NCBI GenBank assembly: GCA_902774395.1
Contig: CACYIK010000001.1
Location: 62,001-126,000, forward strand
Origin: an uncultured Bacteroidota bacterium
Lineage (GTDB): Bacteria > Bacteroidota > Bacteroidia > Bacteroidales > P3
Length of the DNA stretch: 64,000 nucleotides
Reading direction: 5' to 3'
A program made the position numbers and the translations under genes. Under the pieces are notes generated by a model. The model was not told the DNA's origin. It saw only the letters and a program-made list of their open reading frames with translations, and did no database searches. Each line of letters begins with the position of its first letter. The stretch's first letter is position 1. Positions 2,548 to 60,301 of the stretch are shown one piece after another.

Positions 2548-3421
2548 AAAGAAGGTATAATTGTCTATTATTTGATTTTGCAAAAGTACTACAAATATTT
2601 CTATTGCAACTTCTGTGCCAACGTTTCTTTTCAACAACGGTTTGTGAATTAGCGCTTAGGGACTGCTCCTCCGGCTCCAGTGCCCCGATATACACTGTCT
2701 CCGAGGCGCGGCCCTTGTAGTCTGTGACGAAGCCGTAGAGGTGCACCGCCATGCCCTGCCAACGCTCAGGGAGAGTGATTCTTACGCTCTTGCTGCGGCG
2801 TGTGGCCGGCATCGACAGCACCCCCTCGCCGGCCTCGGGACAGAAGGCCCACAGGTACACCTCGTCGTCGCCGCAGGCTCGTTCGCCTTCGGCGTGGGGA
2901 AGGAATGAGAACGTCATTGTAGCCCCCACCCCGGCGCCTTGCGCCACCCCTCCCTCCAGGGAGGGGACGGGCTGCCGCATCACGTTGTCGTTCTGCAAGG
3001 TCGTCCTTTCAGCCTGCGTAGCCATCCCCTCCCTGCAGGGAGGGGTGGGGGTGGGGGCTATAAAGATCGGCGTCGCTAGCTCCCCCTCGCTGATAATCAG
3101 CTGCTCCCACTTCACGTCCATTTTTCCTTCCTGAGATAGTGCGAAGCACTCCTTGTTCCTCTTCACGAAGAGGTTGCACTCCGTCAGATGCTCTGCCAGT
3201 GCCACGTGGTGCATGCCCTTGCGCAGCGCCTGCTTGAAGGCCGACGCCAGGAAGACCATCTGCTTGAAAAGCTCGCGGTTGTGCTGCTGTTTCTCGGTGC
3301 GCGGATTGCGCACGCTGCGCGGCCGTGCCCGCAGGCACCATCTGCCGCGCCACATATACCCGATGACGGTACCCACCGTTCCGCGGTACCCGTCGTTGAT
3401 TCCATAACGTTGCTTTGCCAT
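2528..3421 (-). CDS. DUF6266 family protein with an in-frame repeat insertion
   Basis: Protein of unknown function, 297 residues. The N-terminal part (GYRGTVGTVIGYMWRGRWCL, then an RxxRTEKQQHNRELFKQM-type stretch) and the C-terminal part (VYLWAFCPEAGEGVLSM, MAVHLYGFVTDYKGRASET) resemble DUF6266 proteins of Bacteroidota, which are usually near 200-220 residues. The excess has two sources. A 141-bp GC-rich element (2920-3060) is read through in frame and gives a Pro/Gly-rich linker. The last 40 or so residues, after YIGALEPEE, are encoded by the clpC promoter region and look like read-through rather than a folded domain. Its stop lies 20 bases inside clpC. Function unknown; family assignment is from memory of the family pattern. 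Confidence 0.7.
2581..2609 (-). promoter_or_regulatory. clpC promoter
   Basis: On the minus strand TTG (2609-2607), an 18-base spacer and TACTTTTG (2588-2581) fit the Bacteroidota consensus TTG-N19-TAnnTTTG. Transcription would begin near 2574, about 27 bases before the clpC ATG. The site lies inside the 3' part of the DUF6266 reading frame. Confidence 0.6.
2920..3060. repeat. MITE-like GC-rich element, copy A (inside DUF6266 gene)
   Basis: The ends are inverted: TAGCCCCCACCCC at 2920-2932 and its complement at 3048-3060, each beginning with TA. Inside lie two imperfect copies of the palindrome CCCTCCCTGCAGGGAGGG (one with CCAGG at its centre). The 141 bases equal 47 codons, so the host frame is not broken. 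A related element is at 25430-25689. Confidence 0.7.
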
Positions 3422-25429: not shown

Positions 25430-25689
25430 TACCCCCACCCCGACCCCTGACGGGGCCACCCCTCCCTGCAGGGAGGGGACGCTACGCAGCCCATTTCTAC
25501 GAGTCATTTGTACGGACCTCGCCAGTCATCCCCTCCCAGTAGAACAGGCCTCTTCACCATCCCCTCCCAGTAGAACAGGCCTTCTCATCATCCCCTCCCT
25601 GCAGGACAGACCTCTTCACCATCCTCTCCCTGCAGGACAGACCTCTTCACCATCCCCTCCCTGCAGGGAGGGGGCAGGGGGAGGGGGTA
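25430..25689. repeat. MITE-like GC-rich element, copy B
   Basis: It begins TACCCCCACCCC and ends GGGGGAGGGGGTA, the same type of TA-bounded inverted ends as the element at 2920-3060, and includes CACCCCTCCCTGCAGGGAGG with GCTACGCAG after it, as in copy A. Its right half has expanded into a 31-bp tandem repeat. No gene is seen in 25334-25913. Confidence 0.7.
25527..25669. repeat. 31-bp minisatellite
   Basis: Four consecutive 31-bp units start at 25527, 25558, 25589 and 25620, with a partial fifth at 25651. Units begin CATCCCCTCCC and end near CCTCTTCAC; units 1-2 have AGTAGAACAGG and units 3-4 TGCAGGACAGA in the middle. No spacers lie between units, so this is not a CRISPR. Confidence 0.85.
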
Positions 25690-43186: not shown

Positions 43187-44450
43187 AAAGGTGAAAGGTG
43201 AAAGGTTAAAGGTGAGAGGTGGCTGGCGCATATTATTGTATGCACTAATTTTCACCTTTCACCTCTCACCTTTCACCTTGAACGCGCAGTCGAAGAAGCA
43301 GCTCGAGAAGGACAAGGCCAAGGTCGAGCAGGAGATCAAGAAGCTCAACAACGACCTGGCCAAGGCCAAGAAGAACAGCAAGGCCGGCCAGCAGCAGCTG
43401 AACATCCTGGGTAAGAAAATCGACGAGCGCACCAAGCTCATCAACGTCATCAACGGCGAGATGAACCTGCTGGGCGAGAAGATGTCGCGCACCGAGGACA
43501 GCATCCGTCTGATGCGTGGCCAGGTCGACAGCATGAAGCTCGAATACGGCAAGGTGGTGCGCGTGCTCTATGCCGAGCGCGGCAACATCGACCCCATGTC
43601 AATGCTCTTCGACAACAAGTCGTACAACGTCGCCTACCTGCGCCAGAAATACTTCCGTGACTATAGCCGCTACCGCCGCCGTCAGGCCGCCTTCATCCGC
43701 GAGAAGGAGCAGGAGCTGAACGACGTGGGCGTGGAACTGAAGCGTCAGCAGCGCGAGCAGTCGACGCTCCTCGAGCAGCACCGCCGCCAGAAGGCTGAAC
43801 TCGCCCGCGAGCAGAAGGAGCAGCAGAAGAACCTGAAGAACAGCCGTCAGCAGGAGCAGCAGCTGAAGAACCAGATCGCCAAGAAGGAGAAGCAGAAACG
43901 CGAGCTGCAGCAGCAGATACAGCGCATCATCAACGAGGAGATTGCCAAGGCTGCCAAAGCGAAGACCAACTCGACAGACAAGAGTGGTAAGACGGGTGGC
44001 AGCGGCAACACTGCCTCTCCCGCCCCCAGTGCCGCCGAGGTGGCGCTGAGCAACGACTTCGCCTCCAACAAAGGCCGTCTGCCGTGGCCCGTGAGCTACA
44101 CCAAGGTGTCGCGCGAATATGGTCGCTACCAGCATGCCTCCGGAGGACAGAACATGAACAACGGCATCGATCTCATGTGCTCCGGCGGCGCCGGCGTGAA
44201 GTGCGTCTTCAACGGCACCGTGTCGCGCGTCTTCACCTGTCCCAACGGCACCAAGGGCATCATCGTTCGCCATGGCGACTACATGACCGTCTATGCCAAC
44301 ATGGGCAATGTCGCAGTCGGCGAAGGCCAGTCGGTGAAGACGGGTCAGAACCTCGGCGCCGTCTACACCAACAGCGACGGCACGGCCGAGTTCTCTTTCC
44401 AACTCTGGAAGGGCAAGTCCTCGCAGAACCCACGTTCTTGGTTGAGATAA
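43155..44450 (+). CDS. EnvC-like murein hydrolase activator (degenerate M23/LytM)
   Basis: About 430 residues. The signal-peptide core LLYALIFTFHLSPFTLNAQS is followed by long coiled coils (KKQLEKDKAKVEQEIKKLNN; KKEKQKRELQQQIQRIINEE), an Ser/Gly-rich linker and a LytM domain (about 315-431). The zinc ligands of active M23 enzymes are not kept: NNGIDL replaces HxGxD, HGDYMTVYANMG lacks the second His, and EFSFQLW replaces LHFEIW. So it should activate amidases rather than cut itself. The start is uncertain: ATG 43155 lies inside the PFK gene; GTG 43191 and GTG 43212 lie in a heptamer array. Confidence 0.85.
   Translation: MTSRRFLTGTKKVKGERLKVRGGWRILLYALIFTFHLSPFTLNAQSKKQLEKDKAKVEQEIKKLNNDLAKAKKNSKAGQQQLNILGKKIDERTKLINVINGEMNLLGEKMSRTEDSIRLMRGQVDSMKLEYGKVVRVLYAERGNIDPMSMLFDNKSYNVAYLRQKYFRDYSRYRRRQAAFIREKEQELNDVGVELKRQQREQSTLLEQHRRQKAELAREQKEQQKNLKNSRQQEQQLKNQIAKKEKQKRELQQQIQRIINEEIAKAAKAKTNSTDKSGKTGGSGNTASPAPSAAEVALSNDFASNKGRLPWPVSYTKVSREYGRYQHASGGQNMNNGIDLMCSGGAGVKCVFNGTVSRVFTCPNGTKGIIVRHGDYMTVYANMGNVAVGEGQSVKTGQNLGAVYTNSDGTAEFSFQLWKGKSSQNPRSWLR
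43189..43281. repeat. Inverted heptamer arrays (GGTGAAA) around the EnvC-like start
   Basis: AGGTGAAAGGTGAAAGG and following units (43189-43220) and the inverse TTTCACCTTTCACCTCTCAC (43250-43281) flank a core GCTGGCGCATATTATTGTAT. The right arm encodes part of the signal peptide. Confidence 0.85.
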
Positions 44451-44487: not shown

Positions 44488-45293
44488 TATATTTTGTTTC
44501 GGATGCGCATCTGGGTAGCGGGGCGGACACCCTCGAGCGGGAACGCCAGCTCTGCCAGTGGCTCGATAGCATCAAGGATGACTGTGGAAAACTCTTCCTC
44601 CTGGGCGATATCTTCGACTTCTGGTTCACCTACCGCTACCTTGTGCCCCGGGGCCACACACGGCTCCTCGGCAAGCTGGCCGAGCTGGCCGACAGCGGCG
44701 TCGAGATACACTTCTTTATCGGCAACCACGACATGTGGATGTTCGACTACCTCACCCAGGAGTTCGGTGCCATCCTCCATGACGATCCCGAGGTCTTCGA
44801 GCTCTATGGCAAACGCATCCTGATAGGCCACGGCGACGGCCTCGGACATACCGACCGTTGGTTCGACTTCGTGCGCGTGCTCTTCCGCAGTCGCCTCTGC
44901 CAGAAGCTTTTCAAGATGTTCCCGTCGGCGCTCACCTTCGGCATCGCCCACCGCTGGAGCGATGGCAACAAGCGCAAGCATGCCCGCCGCGACATGCTGC
45001 ACTACCTCGGCGACGACCGCGAGGGCATCGTCATCTACATCAAACAACGTCTCCAGAAAGAACCCCTCGACTACTGCGTCTTCGGCCACCGCCACACGCC
45101 CCTGACTAAAGTGTTTAGTGGTCAGTGTTCAGTGATTAGTGATGCTACGCAGTCCGCTGCCGACCAACTAAACACTCAACACTCAACACTAAACACTGTT
45201 TACGTCAACACCGGCGACTGGTTCCACAACCGCAACTACGCCGTCCTTACACCGGATGGCGAGCTGAAACTCTGCGATTTTTTAGTTGATTGA
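44475..45293 (+). CDS. lpxH: UDP-2,3-diacylglucosamine diphosphatase-like metallophosphoesterase
   Basis: 272 residues. It cleaves UDP-2,3-diacylglucosamine to lipid X in lipid A synthesis. Calcineurin-like motifs DAHLG (10-14), GDIFDFW, GNHDMW, GHGDGLGH and FGHRHTPLT are in order. The only plausible start is TTG (44475-44477), since stop codons of the upstream array precede it in frame. Between TPLTKV and VYVNTGDWF an insert of about 29 residues (FSGQCSVISDATQS ... NTQHSTLNT) is encoded by an inverted repeat array; it adds a Ser/Thr/Gln loop near the C-terminus. Confidence 0.88.
   Translation: MRDKVYFVSDAHLGSGADTLERERQLCQWLDSIKDDCGKLFLLGDIFDFWFTYRYLVPRGHTRLLGKLAELADSGVEIHFFIGNHDMWMFDYLTQEFGAILHDDPEVFELYGKRILIGHGDGLGHTDRWFDFVRVLFRSRLCQKLFKMFPSALTFGIAHRWSDGNKRKHARRDMLHYLGDDREGIVIYIKQRLQKEPLDYCVFGHRHTPLTKVFSGQCSVISDATQSAADQLNTQHSTLNTVYVNTGDWFHNRNYAVLTPDGELKLCDFLVD
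45111..45198. repeat. Inverted heptamer arrays inside lpxH
   Basis: GTGTTTAGTGGTCAGTGTTC and the inverse AACACTCAACACTAAACACT flank a core GATGCTACGCAGTCCGCTGC. The whole lies in frame. Confidence 0.85.
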
Positions 45294-45463: not shown

Positions 45464-47165
45464 GGGCGATTTTGACGTGGCGCAGGTCGAGGTTATTCAT
45501 CGCGTTGGAGCGGAGACCTGTGACGTTCTTGTGTGTGAAGTGGAGAATCTGGTCGTAGTAGAGCACTATGACGGGCGCTTCCGCCATGACGAGACTGTCA
45601 ATGCGGTGGTAGAGTGCGGTGCGTTGCTCGGGGTCGGTGGTGGAGCGTGCGCGGGTGTAGAGGCGGTCGACCTCGGGATTGTTGAAGCGTGTGTAGTTGG
45701 GACCTGCGGGTGCGCGGTTAGGCGAGTAGAAGAGCGAGAGGTAGTTCTCCGCGTCGGGGTAGTCGGCCACCCACGAGCCGCGGAACCACGGCAGTTTACC
45801 CTCGGACATCTGCTGGCGCAGAGGCGCCGGCGGGTTGACGTCGACCTCGACGGTGAGGCCCAGCAGTCCCAGCTGCTGCTGGATGTACTTGCAGAGGTCC
45901 ACATAGTTGCTTGTGGTCGACAGCTTCAGTGGCGGAATCTCTTTGCCGCCAAGGCTTTTCTTTACCTCGGCTATCAGCGTGCGGGCCCGCCCGGGGTCGT
46001 ACTCGTAGAGGGGTTGCTCGGCGGCACCCGGCAAGCCGCGGGGGATGAAGCCGTAGACGCCGGGCTCACCCACGTTGTTGCGCAGGTATTTCATCATCTT
46101 GCGGCGGTCGAATCCCAGGGCTATGGCCTGGCGCAGCCGGCGGTCGTGCAGGACGCTGTTGTGGTCCTCCATGTTGAAGCCCAGGTACTCGGTGTTGAGG
46201 TAGGGGGTGGAGACCATGTCGATACGGTCGGCATACTTCTCTTTCAGCCGTCCGTCGGGGGTGAGGATCTCGTCTTTGTAGCTGGCGTCGAGCGAGTTCA
46301 TGAAGTCGAGGTTGCCCTTGACGAACTCCAGGAAGACAGTCTGGCGGTCGACGATAAAGGTCACCGCCACCGCATCCAAATAGGGGAGACGGTGGGTTGA
46401 TATAACTTCAAAATATAGCGGGTTCTTGCGGAGGACGAGTTTCACGCCTTCTTTCCAGTATTGGAACTGGAAGGGGCCGGTGCCGCAGGGGTGCGAGCGG
46501 AAGTCTTTGCCGTAGTGCTCTACCACCTCGTGGGGCACCACGGAGCAGTAGACCATGCCGAGGAGCGAGAGGAAGGGGGCGAAGGGTTCTTTGAGGCGGA
46601 TGATGAAAGTGGTGTCGGTGGGTGCGTAGAAGGTGTCGACCTCGCTGAACACCCAGGCGCCGGGCGAGAGCACCGTGGGGTCGACGATACGGTGAAACGA
46701 GTAGACGAAGTCGGAGGCGATGACGCGGCGTGTACTGTCGTGTTTTGGGGAGTGAGAGGGAGTGAGAGGGAGTGAAAGGGAGTGAGAGGACGAATGATCG
46801 CTGCTTGCAAATAACTCGTTTTTATGGAAGTATACGTCGTCTCTTAATATAAAGGTATAGGTGAGTCCGTCGTCGCTGATGGTCCAGCGTTTGGCTATGG
46901 AGGGCTGCACCTCGAGGGCGGTGTCGAGTTCGATGAGGCCGTTGTAAAGCTGACGGCAGGGCCAGATGATGCTCTGGTCCTTGGCGAACGCCGGGTCGAG
47001 GGTGGCGATGCCCGCCGTCTCGTTGTAGCGGAAGATCATCTTGTCCTCGTGACGGTGACCGCCGCAAGCAGCGAGAAGGATGACAAGCGTAAGGAGTGAA
47101 AGGGAGTGAGAGGGAGTGAAAGGGAGTGAAAGGACAAATGACTTCATTGTTGTTATTTTATTCAT
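45459..47165 (-). CDS. Oligopeptide-binding lipoprotein (SBP family 5)
   Basis: About 568 residues from MNKITTMKSF (ATG 47147 is an alternative). Signal peptide with lipobox LLAAC. Solute-binding family 5 signatures: ATLDPAFAKDQSI, YNGLIELD, TYTFILRDDVYFH, GTGPFQFQYWKEG, DRRLRQAIALGFDR. It binds peptides or similar solutes; no permease or ATPase is adjacent, so the partner is elsewhere. Two parts come from the decamer GGGAGTGAAA array: the signal-peptide segment LSLPFTPSHSLSLLTL and an insert SSHSLSLPLTPSHSPKHD (about 136-153). Confidence 0.9.
   Translation of the reverse strand: MNKITTMKSFVLSLPFTPSHSLSLLTLVILLAACGGHRHEDKMIFRYNETAGIATLDPAFAKDQSIIWPCRQLYNGLIELDTALEVQPSIAKRWTISDDGLTYTFILRDDVYFHKNELFASSDHSSSHSLSLPLTPSHSPKHDSTRRVIASDFVYSFHRIVDPTVLSPGAWVFSEVDTFYAPTDTTFIIRLKEPFAPFLSLLGMVYCSVVPHEVVEHYGKDFRSHPCGTGPFQFQYWKEGVKLVLRKNPLYFEVISTHRLPYLDAVAVTFIVDRQTVFLEFVKGNLDFMNSLDASYKDEILTPDGRLKEKYADRIDMVSTPYLNTEYLGFNMEDHNSVLHDRRLRQAIALGFDRRKMMKYLRNNVGEPGVYGFIPRGLPGAAEQPLYEYDPGRARTLIAEVKKSLGGKEIPPLKLSTTSNYVDLCKYIQQQLGLLGLTVEVDVNPPAPLRQQMSEGKLPWFRGSWVADYPDAENYLSLFYSPNRAPAGPNYTRFNNPEVDRLYTRARSTTDPEQRTALYHRIDSLVMAEAPVIVLYYDQILHFTHKNVTGLRSNAMNNLDLRHVKIAR
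46748..46791. repeat. Decamer array inside the SBP gene (insert)
   Basis: Four 10-bp units of GGGAGTGAGA/GGGAGTGAAA in tandem; in frame on the minus strand they read S-H-S-L-S-L-P-L-T-P. Confidence 0.85.
47092..47133. repeat. Decamer array in the SBP signal peptide
   Basis: Four 10-bp units of the same GGGAGTGAAA type, coding for the h-region of the lipoprotein signal peptide. Confidence 0.85.
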
Positions 47166-47179
47166 TGTTTTCAATAAAT

Positions 47180-47293
47180 AATGGTTAACGATTAACGGTT
47201 AACGAGGAGGCTACGCTGTCTCCGTGTGGCGTCAGCCCTCTATAACCTATAACCCATAACCAATAACCTTTAATCATTAATCGTTAATCATTA
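47180..47293. repeat. Inverted heptamer arrays between SBP and amidohydrolase genes
   Basis: GGTTAACGATTAACGGTTAA at the left and CATAACCAATAACCTTTAAT at the right flank a core GAGGCTACGCTGTCTCCGTG. The right arm runs into the 3' end of the amidohydrolase gene. Confidence 0.8.
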
Positions 47294-48516
47294 CGATAAA
47301 CAATTTTCCCGTCGACGATGGTCATGGCTACGCTCTCGCCGTGAGTGGCATAAATCAAGTTGCTGAGTGACTGGGTGGCAGAGTGGCTAAGAGACTCGGT
47401 CACTTTGTCACTTAGTGACTCAGTCACTTTTACTAAAAACAGGTCGGCGGGTTGGCCGGGGGCGATGGAGTGGCCGAGGGTGGCGAGGGAGAGAATCTGC
47501 TCGGCGGGGACGACGGTGGGGTCGCCGCGCCAGCCTTTCTGCAGCAGGGCGGCGGTCTTCATCACCTCGATCATGTCGAGGTTGTTGCTCGAGGCGCTGC
47601 CGTCAGTGCCCAGTGTCACTTTGGCTCCTGCCTCCAGCAGCTCGAGCATGGGGAAGCGGTAGCCGCTGCCGAGCTTGAGGTTGCTGTTGGGGCAGTGGAC
47701 GCAGGTGATGCCGTGGTCGCCGATGAGGCGTATCTCGTGGTCCGACAGGTGGAGGCAGTGGGCGGCGATGATGTTGCTGCCTAGTTTGTCCAGTATGCCT
47801 AGTTTGTCCAGCCACTCCCATGGGCGGCAGCCGTGTTCGCGGAGGCAGTCGTCGACCTCCTTCTGCGTCTCGCTCATGTGGATATGCATGGACAGCTGGA
47901 GGTCGGCGCAGGCGTCGGCGCAACGCCGCAGCCCCTTCTCAGTGACGGTATAGATGGAGTGGGGGGCGATGGAGAGTGTGATTGTGTTAGAGTGTGATTG
48001 TGTTATTGCGTTAGTGTTTGTCGTGTCATCACTAGCGCAATCACGCATTAACGCATTAACGCATTCTAAGTCGTCGGCGTCGCAGAAGAAATTCTGTCCC
48101 AGTCGGGCTTTGATGCCGCTGTCATTTACGGCCTGGGCCATGGCGGGGAGGCGGAAGTACATGTCGTTGAAGAAGGTGGTGCCGCTGGCCAGCATCTCGC
48201 GGCATGCCTGCAGGGTGCCCTCGTAGACGAGCTCGTCGGTGAGCTTCTGTTCGGCGGGCCAGATGTAGTCGTTGAGCCAGACGTCCAGCGGCTGGTCGTC
48301 GCCCAGTCCGCGGAAGAGGGTCATGGGCGCATGGGAGTGCATGTTGCAGAGGCCGGGGAACACGGCGAGGCCATGTGCGTCAATAAGGTGAGAGGTGAGA
48401 GGTGAAAGATGAGAGGTGTGTGGCTGTATAACGGAAATGGTGCCCTCGTTGATAGTAATATCAACGAGGGCACCATTAAGCAGTGCGTTGCTGATTACAG
48501 TTGTTTCACCTTTCAC
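47284..48516 (-). CDS. Amidohydrolase family deaminase (S-adenosylhomocysteine/5'-methylthioadenosine deaminase-like)
   Basis: About 410 residues. The metal ligands are in NMHSHAPM (about 58-65; HxH), HIHMSETQ, AAHCLHLSD and GTDGSASSNN, the pattern of MtaD/TrzN-like deaminases. The start is a GTG (48514-48516) in a heptamer array. Three in-frame repeat inserts are visible: HTSHLSPLTSHL (about 33-44), SDDTTNTNAITQSHSNTITL (about 162-181) and KVTESLSDKVTESLSHSATQ (about 363-382). A perfect 19-bp inverted repeat (48436-48477) encodes NGALVDITINEGTI. It lies downstream of atpC. Confidence 0.85.
   Translation of the reverse strand: MKGETTVISNALLNGALVDITINEGTISVIQPHTSHLSPLTSHLIDAHGLAVFPGLCNMHSHAPMTLFRGLGDDQPLDVWLNDYIWPAEQKLTDELVYEGTLQACREMLASGTTFFNDMYFRLPAMAQAVNDSGIKARLGQNFFCDADDLECVNALMRDCASDDTTNTNAITQSHSNTITLSIAPHSIYTVTEKGLRRCADACADLQLSMHIHMSETQKEVDDCLREHGCRPWEWLDKLGILDKLGSNIIAAHCLHLSDHEIRLIGDHGITCVHCPNSNLKLGSGYRFPMLELLEAGAKVTLGTDGSASSNNLDMIEVMKTAALLQKGWRGDPTVVPAEQILSLATLGHSIAPGQPADLFLVKVTESLSDKVTESLSHSATQSLSNLIYATHGESVAMTIVDGKIVYRND
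47362..47430. repeat. Inverted array inside the amidohydrolase gene (C-terminal insert)
   Basis: Units GAGTGACTGGGTGGCAGAGT then, inverted, GTCACTTAGTGACTCAGTCAC. In frame. Confidence 0.8.
47972..48067. repeat. Inverted array inside the amidohydrolase gene (central insert)
   Basis: GAGTGTGATTGTGTTAGAGT and the inverse ACGCATTAACGCATTAACGC around TTTGTCGTGTCATCAC. Confidence 0.8.
48384..48420. repeat. Heptamer array GGTGAGA, left arm (in the amidohydrolase gene)
   Basis: AAGGTGAGAGGTGAGAGGTG on the plus strand; its inverse is at 48503-48537. In frame it reads HTSHLSPLTSHL. Confidence 0.8.
48436..48477. repeat. Perfect 19-bp inverted repeat inside the amidohydrolase gene
   Basis: Arms 48436-48454 and 48459-48477 are exact complements with a 4-base loop GTAA. 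Confidence 0.9.
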
Positions 48517-48537
48517 CTTTCACCTCTCACCTTATTA
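48503..48537. repeat. Heptamer array GGTGAAA at the amidohydrolase start
   Basis: On the minus strand, GGTGAGAGGTGAAAGGTGAA runs from the atpC stop codon to the GTG start of the amidohydrolase. Confidence 0.85.
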
Positions 48538-52480: not shown

Positions 52481-54811
52481 TCACCTTATCACCACCACCT
52501 TTCTTGCTTGATAGTTGCCTATTTTAATCATATAGGTGCCGCTGGCGGGAATGTCGAAGTGCAAAGGTTTGCCGTAGTCCTGCTTGGTGGCAAGGATGCG
52601 GCCGGTGACATCGTACAGCGTCACCATGTTGCCGTCGGCGCCCTCTACCACTATGCGTCCATCGCGCTGGTAGATTTTGGCATTGACCGTCTCCACGCCG
52701 TTGATGCCCGTCTGGTCGACAAAGACCGTGTCGTGAATATAGACGGTGTCGAAGATGTAACGGTTCAGATAGATGGTGTCATAGACGTAGTTGTTGACAA
52801 TCACAGTGTCGTGGTAGTAGTTGGTAACGAAAACCGTATCGTAATACTGGTTGTTGACCATCGTGGTGTCGTACTGGTAGTAGTTGTTAATTACCGTGTC
52901 ATAGATGTTGACAATAGTGGTGTCGTACTGGTAGTAGTTGTTAATCACCGTGTCATAGATGTTGACGATTGTGGTATCGTACTGGTAGTAGTTGTTGGAG
53001 ATTCGTATCGTGTCGTGGACAAGTTTCATAAAGTAGGCCGAGAGAGTGGTGTCAGATATCACTGTGATGATATGAGGATTATCGATGCTGCCGTCACTCC
53101 AGTGGTCGAAGTAAAAGTCCTCATCCGCCGTGGCAGTGAGCGTGGCCGTGTTGTCTTCGCAGGTGGGCTGCACTATAGCCACACTGCCGTGGTAGCTGTC
53201 AGCGATAGAGACCGTGTACTCCATTTCTCCTTGAATATTGTTAAAACGTTTCCACTCGGGGGTAGTCTGATAGATTGAAATAGCATTGCAGGGGACATAG
53301 AGGGAAATATTGTATCTTCCAGATCCGCCAATGATATATGATGGATGTTCTACTGATGGAGGCTCGAATGACATGGAATGAATTTCGGTCAACATGCTGC
53401 AGTAACTGAAAGCCATACTGCCTATTGTGGTGACGCTGGATGGAATGGTGACGGAGGTCAGGCTGCTACAGTCAGAGAAAGCGCCACCGCCTATTGAGGT
53501 GACGCCGTCGAGGATGGTAACGGAGGTCAGACTGCTGCAGTAACTGAAAGCATAACCGCCTATCGCGGTGACGCTGGATGGAATGGTGACGGAGGTCAGG
53601 CTGCTACATTCAGAGAAAGCGCTATTGCCTATCGAGGTAACACCGTCGGGGATAGTGACGGAGGTCAGGCTGGTGCAGAAAGAGAATGCCCCATTGCCTA
53701 TCGTGGTGACGCTGGAAGGAATGGTGACGGAGGTCAGGCTGCTACAGCCAGAGAAAGCGTTATCGCCTATCGAGGTAACACCGTCGGGGATAGTGACGGA
53801 GGTCAGGCTGGTGCAGTAAGAGAATGCCCTATTGCCTATCGTGGTGACGCTGGAAGGAATGGTAACTTCCATGGCAGTTCCAATATACGCTATCAGTTCT
53901 GTCCTATTTTCGTCTGCATAGACAAAGTCTCCATCTATCACGCCATTCATAGTGCTTGCCCCCCAACGATCACCCGTTGCAGTCCCATGGTACTCAATGT
54001 GCCTTACCTCGCTGAAAGCCCGGGTTCCGATTGAAGTGACGCCGTCGGGAATGACGACGGAGGCCAGGCTACGACAGTAAGCGAAAGCCTCCTCTCCTAT
54101 CGAGGTGACAGTGGATGGAATGGAGACGGAGGTTAGGCTGGTACAGTAAGAGAATGCCCTATAGCCTATCGAGGTGACGATTGATGGAATAGTGACTTCT
54201 GTGGCATTTCCAATATACGCTATCAGTTCTGTCTTGCTTTCGTCAGCATAGACGAATCCTCCATCCGTCACTCCATTTATAGTGTAAGCTCCCCAAGGTG
54301 CACCTGTTGCTGTCCCGTGGTATTCAATGTGTCTTACTCCATAAAAAGTTTCGTTTACAATTGAGGTAACACCATTAGGGATGGTGACGGAGGCTAGTCT
54401 CCAGCAGTAACTGAAAGCCATACTGCCTATTGTGGTGACGCTGGATGGAATGGTGACGGAGGTCAGGCTGCTACAGTCAGAGAAAGCATTACTGCCTATT
54501 GTGGTGACGCTAGATGGAATGATGACGGATGTTAGGTCCGAGCAATCACAGAAAGCATAACTGCGTATCCTTATAACATTGTAGGTGACGTCATTGAATG
54601 TTACCGTCGCAGGTATGACAAGATCACCCGTTGGAGAAGTTGTATAATACGGGCCACTCCCGTATTCATATGTCACTTCAACAGTATTGTCGCTTAGTCT
54701 GTTAAAATACAGCGTTTGTCCGCTTGGGGCCACGACGGAAAAGTCGTAGGCCTGGACAGTTGGAATCATTGCCATACATGCGGCAATCAAAAGGAATAAT
54801 TTTTTCTTCAT
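52481..54811 (-). CDS. BspA-like leucine-rich-repeat surface protein with C-terminal sorting domain (copy 2)
   Basis: 776 residues. Signal peptide MKKKLFLLIAACMAMIPTVQA. About 14 BspA/LRR_5 repeats of 23 residues (VTIPSSVTTIGSNAFSDCSS type, about 85-480), with two interruptions reading HIEYHGTATG. A Listeria-Bacteroides-type repeat (YFDHWSDGSIDNPHIITV, about 565-582) and a stalk of NNYYQYDTTIVNIYDTVI-like repeats follow (about 600-700). The sorting domain VTLYDVTGRILATKQDYG ... MIKIGNYQARKVVVIR is almost identical to that of 25914-28109. It is expected on the surface as an adhesin-like protein. The DNA repeats are near-identical, so copy number may vary by recombination. Confidence 0.9.
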   Translation of the reverse strand: MKKKLFLLIAACMAMIPTVQAYDFSVVAPSGQTLYFNRLSDNTVEVTYEYGSGPYYTTSPTGDLVIPATVTFNDVTYNVIRIRSYAFCDCSDLTSVIIPSSVTTIGSNAFSDCSSLTSVTIPSSVTTIGSMAFSYCWRLASVTIPNGVTSIVNETFYGVRHIEYHGTATGAPWGAYTINGVTDGGFVYADESKTELIAYIGNATEVTIPSIVTSIGYRAFSYCTSLTSVSIPSTVTSIGEEAFAYCRSLASVVIPDGVTSIGTRAFSEVRHIEYHGTATGDRWGASTMNGVIDGDFVYADENRTELIAYIGTAMEVTIPSSVTTIGNRAFSYCTSLTSVTIPDGVTSIGDNAFSGCSSLTSVTIPSSVTTIGNGAFSFCTSLTSVTIPDGVTSIGNSAFSECSSLTSVTIPSSVTAIGGYAFSYCSSLTSVTILDGVTSIGGGAFSDCSSLTSVTIPSSVTTIGSMAFSYCSMLTEIHSMSFEPPSVEHPSYIIGGSGRYNISLYVPCNAISIYQTTPEWKRFNNIQGEMEYTVSIADSYHGSVAIVQPTCEDNTATLTATADEDFYFDHWSDGSIDNPHIITVISDTTLSAYFMKLVHDTIRISNNYYQYDTTIVNIYDTVINNYYQYDTTIVNIYDTVINNYYQYDTTMVNNQYYDTVFVTNYYHDTVIVNNYVYDTIYLNRYIFDTVYIHDTVFVDQTGINGVETVNAKIYQRDGRIVVEGADGNMVTLYDVTGRILATKQDYGKPLHFDIPASGTYMIKIGNYQARKVVVIR

Positions 54812-59451: not shown

Positions 59452-59482
59452 TGAATTGAAAATTGAGAATTGAAAATTGAAA
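59452..59482. repeat. Heptamer array (GAATTGA/AAATTGA) after pyrE
   Basis: On the plus strand, directly after the pyrE stop. Its exact inverse type lies inside the next gene at 59541-59571. Confidence 0.8.
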
Positions 59483-59488
59483 ATAACT

Positions 59489-60301
59489 ATGGCTAAAAAT
59501 ACAATTGGAAGATTGTTGCTGCTTGTTTGCGCAAGCATATTTTTCAATTTTCAATTTTCAATTTTCAATTCGCTTCGGGCGCAGGAAAGCATGATATCTG
59601 TCCCGGTGGCCGAGGGCGTGACGGTCGATATGGTGTGGGTGAAAGGCGGCACGTTTACCATGGGCAACAACGAGACGCCCAAGGGCGTGAAGCTCACCTA
59701 CGAGGCATCGAAGCCTGAGCACCGCGTGACGGTGGACGGCTACTATATCGGGCGTTACGAGGTGACACAAGGCCTGTGGCGTGCCGTGATGGGCGAGGTG
59801 CCGTCGAAATTCAGCGGCAACGACAGCCTCCCGGTGGAGAATGTCTCGTGGGAGGAGGCGCAGCAGTTCACCATCATGCTCAGCCAGCTCACCGGCCGTC
59901 GCTTCCGTCTGCCTACCGAGGCGGAGTGGGAGTTCGCCGCCCGTGGCGGCAGCAAGAACCCCTTCGCCGGTTGCGACAGGGGCCAGCTGGACAAGTACTG
60001 CTGGTATTGCGTCAACAGCGAGCGCTTCCCGCACCCCGTGGGACAGCTTAAGGCTAACGCCTTGGGACTCTACGACATGAGCGGAAACGTTGCTGAATGG
60101 TGTCAGGACTGGATGGAGGCCTACAGCGCCGACGACCAGACCAATCCCCGCGGCCCGAAGAAAGGCGAAGCCAAGGTGCTGCGTGGCGGCCACTACAACG
60201 GCACGTCGCCGATGTGCACCGTCTACGACCGCAGCTGGTATGTGCCGTCGGGCAAGAGCGAGTACTATGGCCTGAGAGTAGTGATGGAGGTGGGAGAGTG
60301 A
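59489..60301 (+). CDS. SUMF1/formylglycine-generating-enzyme-like exported protein
   Basis: 270 residues. The signal peptide's hydrophobic part continues into FFNFQFSIFNSLRAQ, encoded by a heptamer array. The FGE-sulfatase domain covers the rest: MVWVKGGTFTMGNNE, RVTVDGYYIGRYEVTQGLWR, VENVSWEEAQQF, RFRLPTEAEWEFAARGG, NVAEWCQDWM, VLRGGHYN. Whether it generates formylglycine is doubtful: no sulfatase is adjacent, and most bacterial members serve other roles (e.g. gliding or T9SS accessory proteins such as GldK/GldJ). Start ATG 59489; a TTG at 59477 is in frame. Confidence 0.88.
   Translation: MAKNTIGRLLLLVCASIFFNFQFSIFNSLRAQESMISVPVAEGVTVDMVWVKGGTFTMGNNETPKGVKLTYEASKPEHRVTVDGYYIGRYEVTQGLWRAVMGEVPSKFSGNDSLPVENVSWEEAQQFTIMLSQLTGRRFRLPTEAEWEFAARGGSKNPFAGCDRGQLDKYCWYCVNSERFPHPVGQLKANALGLYDMSGNVAEWCQDWMEAYSADDQTNPRGPKKGEAKVLRGGHYNGTSPMCTVYDRSWYVPSGKSEYYGLRVVMEVGE
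59541..59571. repeat. Heptamer array (TTTTCAA/TTTTCAA) in the SUMF1-like signal peptide
   Basis: Four TTTTCAA units in tandem, the inverse of the array at 59452-59482. The RNA could fold over the start codon between them. Confidence 0.85.

Follow-up and report, generated by a model that had tools for sequence, protein, structure and literature searches.

Palindromic elements with tandem-array arms lie in frame in an amidohydrolase gene and elsewhere in a gut-associated Bacteroidales genus

Results

The window analyzed here, a stretch of 64,000 nucleotides from an uncultured member of the Bacteroidales, contains on its minus strand an amidohydrolase open reading frame (positions 47284-48516; 410 amino acids, GTG start) that carries three in-frame palindromic array segments. 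The product falls into the ATZ/TRZ, cytosine-deaminase-like class (Pfam PF01979 at 9.4e-54) and is matched by NCBIfam models for N-ethylammeline chlorohydrolase and deaminases, all under their cut-offs; among the matches listed, which cover 25 families, no equivalog cut-off was reached, NF012037 scoring 215.6 bits against a cut-off of 779. The top PDB structure by both sequence and fold was 4f0r/4f0s, annotated as an MTA/SAH (adenosine-type) deaminase, and SAH/MTA deamination is a plausible activity because 4f0r is the best sequence match. Relatives of the gene came from rumen and gut Bacteroidales MAGs.

The preliminary description had reported three array-built, in-frame peptides rich in Ser, Thr, and His; these are indeed present, and they are rich in Asn as well. 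It had also counted four events from four array types; there are in fact three palindromes whose arrays form inverted pairs, because the array at the start codon pairs with insert 1 to make up a single inverted repeat. TRF placed arrays at 47399-47429 (8-mer), 47973-48005 (16 = 2x8), 48043-48065 (8), 48386-48418 (7, AGGTGAG), and 48504-48533 (7, TTTCACC). In inverted repeat 1, arm A is insert 1 itself (48382-48412; GGTGAGA heptamers; peptide HTSHLSPLTSHL at 48385-48420) and arm B (48506-48536; TTTCACC heptamers) has the GTG start codon (48514-48516) inside it; the arms are 31 nt long and 94% complementary, and the spacer is 93 nt of native coding sequence. The start codon thus does lie in an array, as had been stated, but at the same position as the ATG of relatives L043 and L051, in which the aligned N termini read MGGET and MEGDT as opposed to VKGET in this gene. 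The N-terminal spacer of native coding sequence itself contains a perfect 19-bp palindrome, LNGALVDITINEGTI (48436-48477; 100% complementary, 4-nt loop).

Inserts 2 and 3 each hold both of their own arms. Insert 2 (47976-48068, minus strand), a copy of a palindromic element of about 93 bp with 8-mer arms (47978-48008 and 48030-48060, 71% complementary), encodes the peptide ECVNALMRDCASDDTTNTNAITQSHSNTI on the coding strand. Insert 3 (47357-47429, minus strand) is an 8-mer palindrome of the GTGACTGA type that encodes KVTESLSDKVTESLSHSATQSLSNL; its arms are 29 nt with a 15-nt spacer, and the inverted-repeat search located them at 47366-47395 and 47399-47428 (73%). One near full-length second copy of insert 3 was found in this genome (G000:C8:50934-51001, 81%).

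When synonymous codons were shuffled, the only parts of the gene with Z values above 5 in this species were site 2 (9.3), site 3 (6.4), and the N-terminal site (5.6 and 6.5); three further shuffle windows gave values of 3.4 to 4.0, and one more, adjoining site 3, gave 3.5. Among the 30 orthologues of the shuffle set, the N-terminal hairpin exceeded synonymous expectation in 11 of 30 species. This coding hairpin (48436-48477) occurs in several registers among the relatives, with paired changes such as GTT..AAC versus GTC..GAC; the cause of its recurrence may be either selection or template-switch homogenization.

The enzyme itself shows the marks of a maintained protein. Its metal-site motifs MHSHAP, MHIHMSE, AAHC, and GTDGSASSN are all intact, in agreement with the earlier statement that the metal-binding residues had been preserved. 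The core is under purifying selection, with dN of 0.07 to 0.16 and dS of 0.57 to 1.63 (NG86; 8 comparisons over 290 core codons), values that do not support the relaxed selection first offered as one explanation of the inserts. An AlphaFold model built from 28 sequences had a mean pLDDT of 89 and a pTM of 0.90; pLDDT fell below 50 at residues 164-175 and in parts of 367-378, which lie within inserts 2 and 3, and averaged 75 in the block with insert 1. The fold is thus predicted to be retained, with the inserts modeled as low-confidence loops, and from its sequence the amidohydrolase appears neither to be decaying nor to be visibly harmed by them. Model confidence and low dN relative to dS together led us to reject a pseudogene or a gene under relaxed selection.

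The age of the inserts was judged at the species level, all comparisons being made on species representatives whose assembled genomes are largely MAGs; L063, a fragmentary match, was left out of the tree (32 rows), the table of sites, and the shuffle (30 species). An array-armed inverted repeat was present at site 1 in 3 of the 32 relatives (L001, L035, and L037), at site 2 in 5 (L001, L035, L036, L037, and L066; four unit types among them), and at site 3 in this gene alone. The inserts are young and not fixed and ancient, because such repeats occupy only these few rows of the 32; the outcome named beforehand as a refutation, with all three segments fixed and ancient in the family, was thus not seen at the species level. 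Different units at one site keep the inverted arrangement. On the gene tree, whose support is weak (stars on 5 of 29 inner branches), the site-2 state requires 4 changes, with a forced minimum of 1. L035 and L037 are not sisters in this weakly supported tree; their site-2 inserts were identical at 104 of 108 positions and the rest of the gene at 693 of 819 (p = 3e-4).

Paired arrays are frequent well beyond this gene. In the window, 17 of 44 arrays had an inverted partner within 150 bp (null, 4.8%) and 2 of 44 a direct partner, and 11 inverted repeats were found versus 0, 0, and 0 in three Markov controls. Among distant taxa, 5 of 36 arrays had inverted partners, and the inverted-repeat control, for which 2,000 bases were taken from the start of 32 of these 36 loci, contained one inverted repeat in 64 kb; because this control also has cases, the inverted arrangement is not exclusive to the genus, only far denser there. 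A genome sample of 304 kb (the window plus 12 stretches of 20 kb) contained 246 arrays, of which 72 had an inverted partner no more than 150 bp away (null, 4.8%) and 31 had a direct partner; in 272.6 kb from 20 genomes of other families there were 45 arrays, 4 with inverted partners. Array-armed inverted repeats numbered 36 in the 304 kb (14 of them in genes called with a simple codon-usage script) versus 2 in the 272.6 kb. The support for very active insertion, once ascribed to the amidohydrolase gene, concerns the genus as a whole and not that gene in particular. Chance low complexity was rejected on the basis of the synonymous shuffle, the Markov controls, and the comparison with other families.

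The array-armed elements measured 72 to 155 bp, with units of 7, 8, 9, 10, or 11 nt. Hosts supported by Pfam were an M23 peptidase, an LpxH-like phosphoesterase, a lipoate ligase (LplA-like), a nucleoside phosphorylase (two elements), a UvrD-like helicase, an AIR-synthase-related protein, a GH3 protein, and a WG-repeat protein. Two of these elements are in frame on the plus strand of the window: one with heptamer arms around the signal-peptide core of the M23 peptidase (43188-43279; PF01551) and one encoding the peptide KVFSGQCSVISDATQSAADQLNTQHSTLNT in the LpxH-like phosphoesterase (45110-45197; PF00149, with NCBIfam LpxH models below cut-off). Between the amidohydrolase and the next gene, overlapping the last 10 nt of the open reading frame, lies a palindrome of TTAACGA heptamers with a GC-rich core, GGCTACGC..GCGTCAGCC (47179-47293); another, of AATTGAA and TTTTCAA heptamers (59453-59571), is outside called genes.

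Repeats of other kinds also occur in the window. A solute-binding-protein-like open reading frame has two same-direction 10-mer arrays (46748-46789 and 47093-47133; GGGAGTGAGA and GGAGTGAAAG), one in the signal peptide and the other 100 residues on (SSHSLSLPLTPSHS), with no inverted partner to either. Positions 52852-54568 have long repeats of 54, 69, 138, and 330 bp, which resemble leucine-rich-repeat surface proteins. At 25527-25667, 2944-3048, and 25459-25673 there are repeats of the CATCCCCTCCCTGCAGG.. type together with inverted repeats rich in GC (CCCCTCCCTCCAGGGAGGGG), which probably make up a further palindrome family in this genome.

Insert 2 belongs to a dispersed family. A DNA search with it recovered copies at 75 to 82% identity, spanning the greater part of the element, at unrelated loci of this genome (G000) and of a second one (G003), and the aligned copies have in common both arms and a non-repetitive spacer near GCTGGCGCGTCAGC. 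A covariance model, R1 (93 positions, paired arms), was built from insert 2 and 15 other copies; its match to insert 2 (G000:C1:109976-110068) is by construction, because insert 2 is among the copies used. R1 matched in 27 of the 41 genomes of the genus and, when 119 genomes across the order were searched, in G000 and 6 of the 118 others. In G000 its 30 matches collapse to 17 places, at nonhomologous loci, because a palindrome matches on both strands. We read 36 copies in context, a set that includes orthologous pairs and so does not amount to 36 independent insertions. Sixteen lay within protein genes, where every copy had the same orientation and 15 of the 16 shared a frame; that orientation had an open frame in 16 of 16 genic copies and in 0 of the 20 others, which comprise 16 copies outside genes and 4 in same-strand open reading frames judged to be spurious antisense frames. 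Genic copies encode peptides like ECVNALMRxCVSADAxATNxITQSHNNAI, and their hosts include PheT and an ABC-F protein (both above NCBIfam cut-offs) and a Mur-ligase-family protein. A second family, of the CTTGAGTG type, is dispersed as well. Dispersal was shown only for these two families and, weakly, for a third; most of the 36 array palindromes have a unit of their own.

In these hosts the same loop may be occupied, empty, or otherwise filled. At PheT site A, 30 loci included the insert-2 family in 2, a heptamer palindrome of the GGAATGA type in 1, and a GTGGAAA-like half-array in 4 (L169, L171, L172, and L176), the other loops being of ordinary length. The ABC-F loop, likewise read in 30 loci, held the insert-2 family in 3, CCCCTCTCC-type palindromes in 2, and a GTGAAAGG-like segment in 1, with a short native form in many. 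The motif search matched 3 of 30 loci at PheT site B and 9 of the 30 given for the Mur ligase, where the element was clear in 2 of those 9. Orthologues without the insert-2 element therefore exist, and other species have different palindromic families in the same loop. At the PheT, ABC-F, and Mur-ligase junctions, where inverted arms are present, we recognized no target-site duplication and could read no clean junction; native loop residues seem to have been replaced, not interrupted. The PheT of this genome (L144) has a second element-like insert, CGNSGMCECGSQTNELTNSQINTLA, at residues ~350-370, and the same site in G003 has a copy of the 8-mer family.

Three Y1 (IS200/RAYT-like) transposase genes were found in G000, L253 (C19), L254 (C1), and L255 (C3), each adjoining its own family of GC-rich palindromes. 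No copies of the insert arrays were found flanking the transposase gene at these three Y1_Tnp loci; one array palindrome lies upstream of L253, as near many genes. No RAYT is shown to move the arrays, because each Y1 gene sits by its own palindrome family, and RAYT as their mobilizer was left unsupported. Near L255, GGGCGTACACGGG-type palindromes run into predicted open reading frames as ..GAYPRVRPNN.. peptides.

Perfect GC-rich palindromes GGCTGACGC..GCGNCAGCC with AAGAATT or ATCACTC arrays on both sides were seen at two further loci (L309 and L310; G000 C12:46077-46106 and 48352-48378), and their core is possibly the same as that in array spacers. A core-like motif, picked after the spacers had been seen, was present in 12 of 36 spacers versus a mean of 1.4 in random segments, and a pattern search of the genome found 3 perfect cores, 2 of them with flanking arrays. 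Unbiased k-mer tests gave only weak signals for spacers (CTACGC occurred in 5, with p = 1e-5 uncorrected for ~2,080 k-mers) and likewise for flanks; with such weak signals, a shared spacer core enters only into the speculative reading given in the Discussion.

Discussion

Our results suggest that the inserts probably represent a class of short palindromic elements (about 70-120 bp) whose arms are inverted arrays of 7-11-nt units, which are scattered in and between genes of the genus and act in the manner of Rickettsia palindromic elements (RPE); copies within genes would survive only in surface loops and in a stop-free orientation and frame, leaving the enzyme working. The inverted-array anatomy, the dispersal, the in-frame residence in unrelated genes, the turnover of loops, and the intact host proteins are direct observations, while placement in surface loops compatible with the fold is predicted from a structural model, for the amidohydrolase only. 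New copies may arise through copying of a hairpin intermediate, after which slippage would lengthen the arms and hairpin template switching would keep them matched; selection would then favor surface loops and a stop-free orientation and frame. An insertion would add a hydrophilic, probably disordered loop to an enzyme that is expected to stay functional.

A bolder version pictures a modular element, in which a GC-rich core hairpin (GGCTGNCGC..GCGNCAGCC) is clad in inverted 7-11-nt arrays whose unit can be swapped wholesale, and hairpin-templated copying keeps writing in-frame loops into housekeeping proteins; we regard this as speculative and somewhat unlikely.

Purely local mutation would dispense with anything mobile: arrays would grow by slippage in tolerant loops and be inverted by replication template switching, and their likeness would reflect low complexity. 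The unit is unique in most array palindromes, the native N-terminal hairpin recurs in several registers, no duplication is seen at the junctions, and template switching has been described as creating and maintaining hairpins (PMC8794818), all of which fits such an origin. So does the native 93-nt spacer of site 1; because that spacer is native coding sequence, the local route is the simpler one there, and the site-1 repeat probably arose by local hairpin-templated copying alone. Local birth does not predict, however, that members of the site-2 family can be aligned over ~93 nt, the non-repetitive spacer GCTGGCGCGTCAGC included, at unrelated places, and as a general account we consider it unlikely.

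A function for the hairpins themselves, which would be selected as DNA or RNA signals in attenuation, transcript stability, or start-site control with the peptides as a by-product, seems less probable still. It would accommodate the N-terminal hairpin, which stands above synonymous expectation in 11 of 30 species, and the inverted arrangement kept by different units at the same site, but orthologues without the hairpin are the majority (27 of 32 at site 2 and 31 of 32 at site 3), and the insertions lie at unrelated positions of unrelated genes. That arrays grew in a dying gene under relaxed selection, as three insertions and a GTG start in one gene might suggest, is highly improbable, given dN far under dS in 8 comparisons, intact motifs, a confidently predicted fold, and the same elements in PheT, ABC-F, Mur-ligase, UvrD-like, and LplA-like genes.

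The best-known in-frame palindromic elements are those of Rickettsia, an intracellular lineage whose genome is reduced and in which weak selection could account for them. That such elements, in a different build, reside in pheT and other genes of a Bacteroidales genus associated with the gut shows that endosymbionts are not alone in having them. With dozens of sibling species whose version of a loop is empty, filled, or filled by another family, it becomes directly testable how the elements spread and how often they turn into working protein loops. Annotators should take low-complexity segments of these MAG proteins as mobile or repeat DNA and not as domains.

Among known systems, the preferred reading, of dispersed palindromic elements, finds its closest counterpart in RPE. 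These, including the CGTC-tagged REPs (RPE-4 and RPE-6), are described as short dispersed palindromes, about half of them genic, that lie in frame in unrelated proteins and are tolerated by the fold (PMC10969869, PMC3733652). By that description, our elements are alike in being palindromic, of a length comparable with the roughly 100-150 bp expected of such repeats, dispersed, in frame in unrelated genes, and, in the amidohydrolase model, compatible with the fold; on our side stand the 93-position paired-arm model, the 17 places, the single frame of 15 of 16 genic copies, and the element-free orthologues. They differ from RPE in having tandem 7-11-nt arrays as arms, in the coexistence of many unit types that take each other's place at a single loop, and in their host, a free-living Bacteroidales genus of the gut. 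REP/RAYT systems (REPtrons) are also palindromic, dispersed, and sometimes intragenic, and this genome has three Y1 transposases with palindromes of their own, but the array elements are not beside these transposases and their arms are arrays.

Other systems resemble the elements in single respects. The TAACTGA heptamer direct repeats described from Beggiatoaceae, cyanobacteria, and five Bacteroidetes, mostly intergenic with a few in open reading frames, share the 7-nt unit arrays; as presented in that account, they are direct, of one unit, and mostly before start codons, whereas here there are inverted pairs and many units (PMC4679880). PARCELs are likewise coding DNA with dyad symmetry that has spread between genomes, but as portrayed in their source they consist of 25-residue domains arranged in tandem within surface proteins, whereas the elements here form single loops of housekeeping enzymes (PMC2996958). 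The coding palindromes of Nematomorpha mitochondria are inverted repeats within working protein genes; in the published description both arms encode conserved protein regions, while here the arms encode added loops (PMC6649704). In the open-access literature (PMC) we found no description of in-frame palindromic elements in Bacteroidales, nor of array arms, diversity of unit types, or exchange of units at one loop. The behavior of the elements is known from RPE and intragenic REPs; what appears new, judged by that literature, is the tandem-array arms, the number of unit types, and the swapping of units at a single loop.
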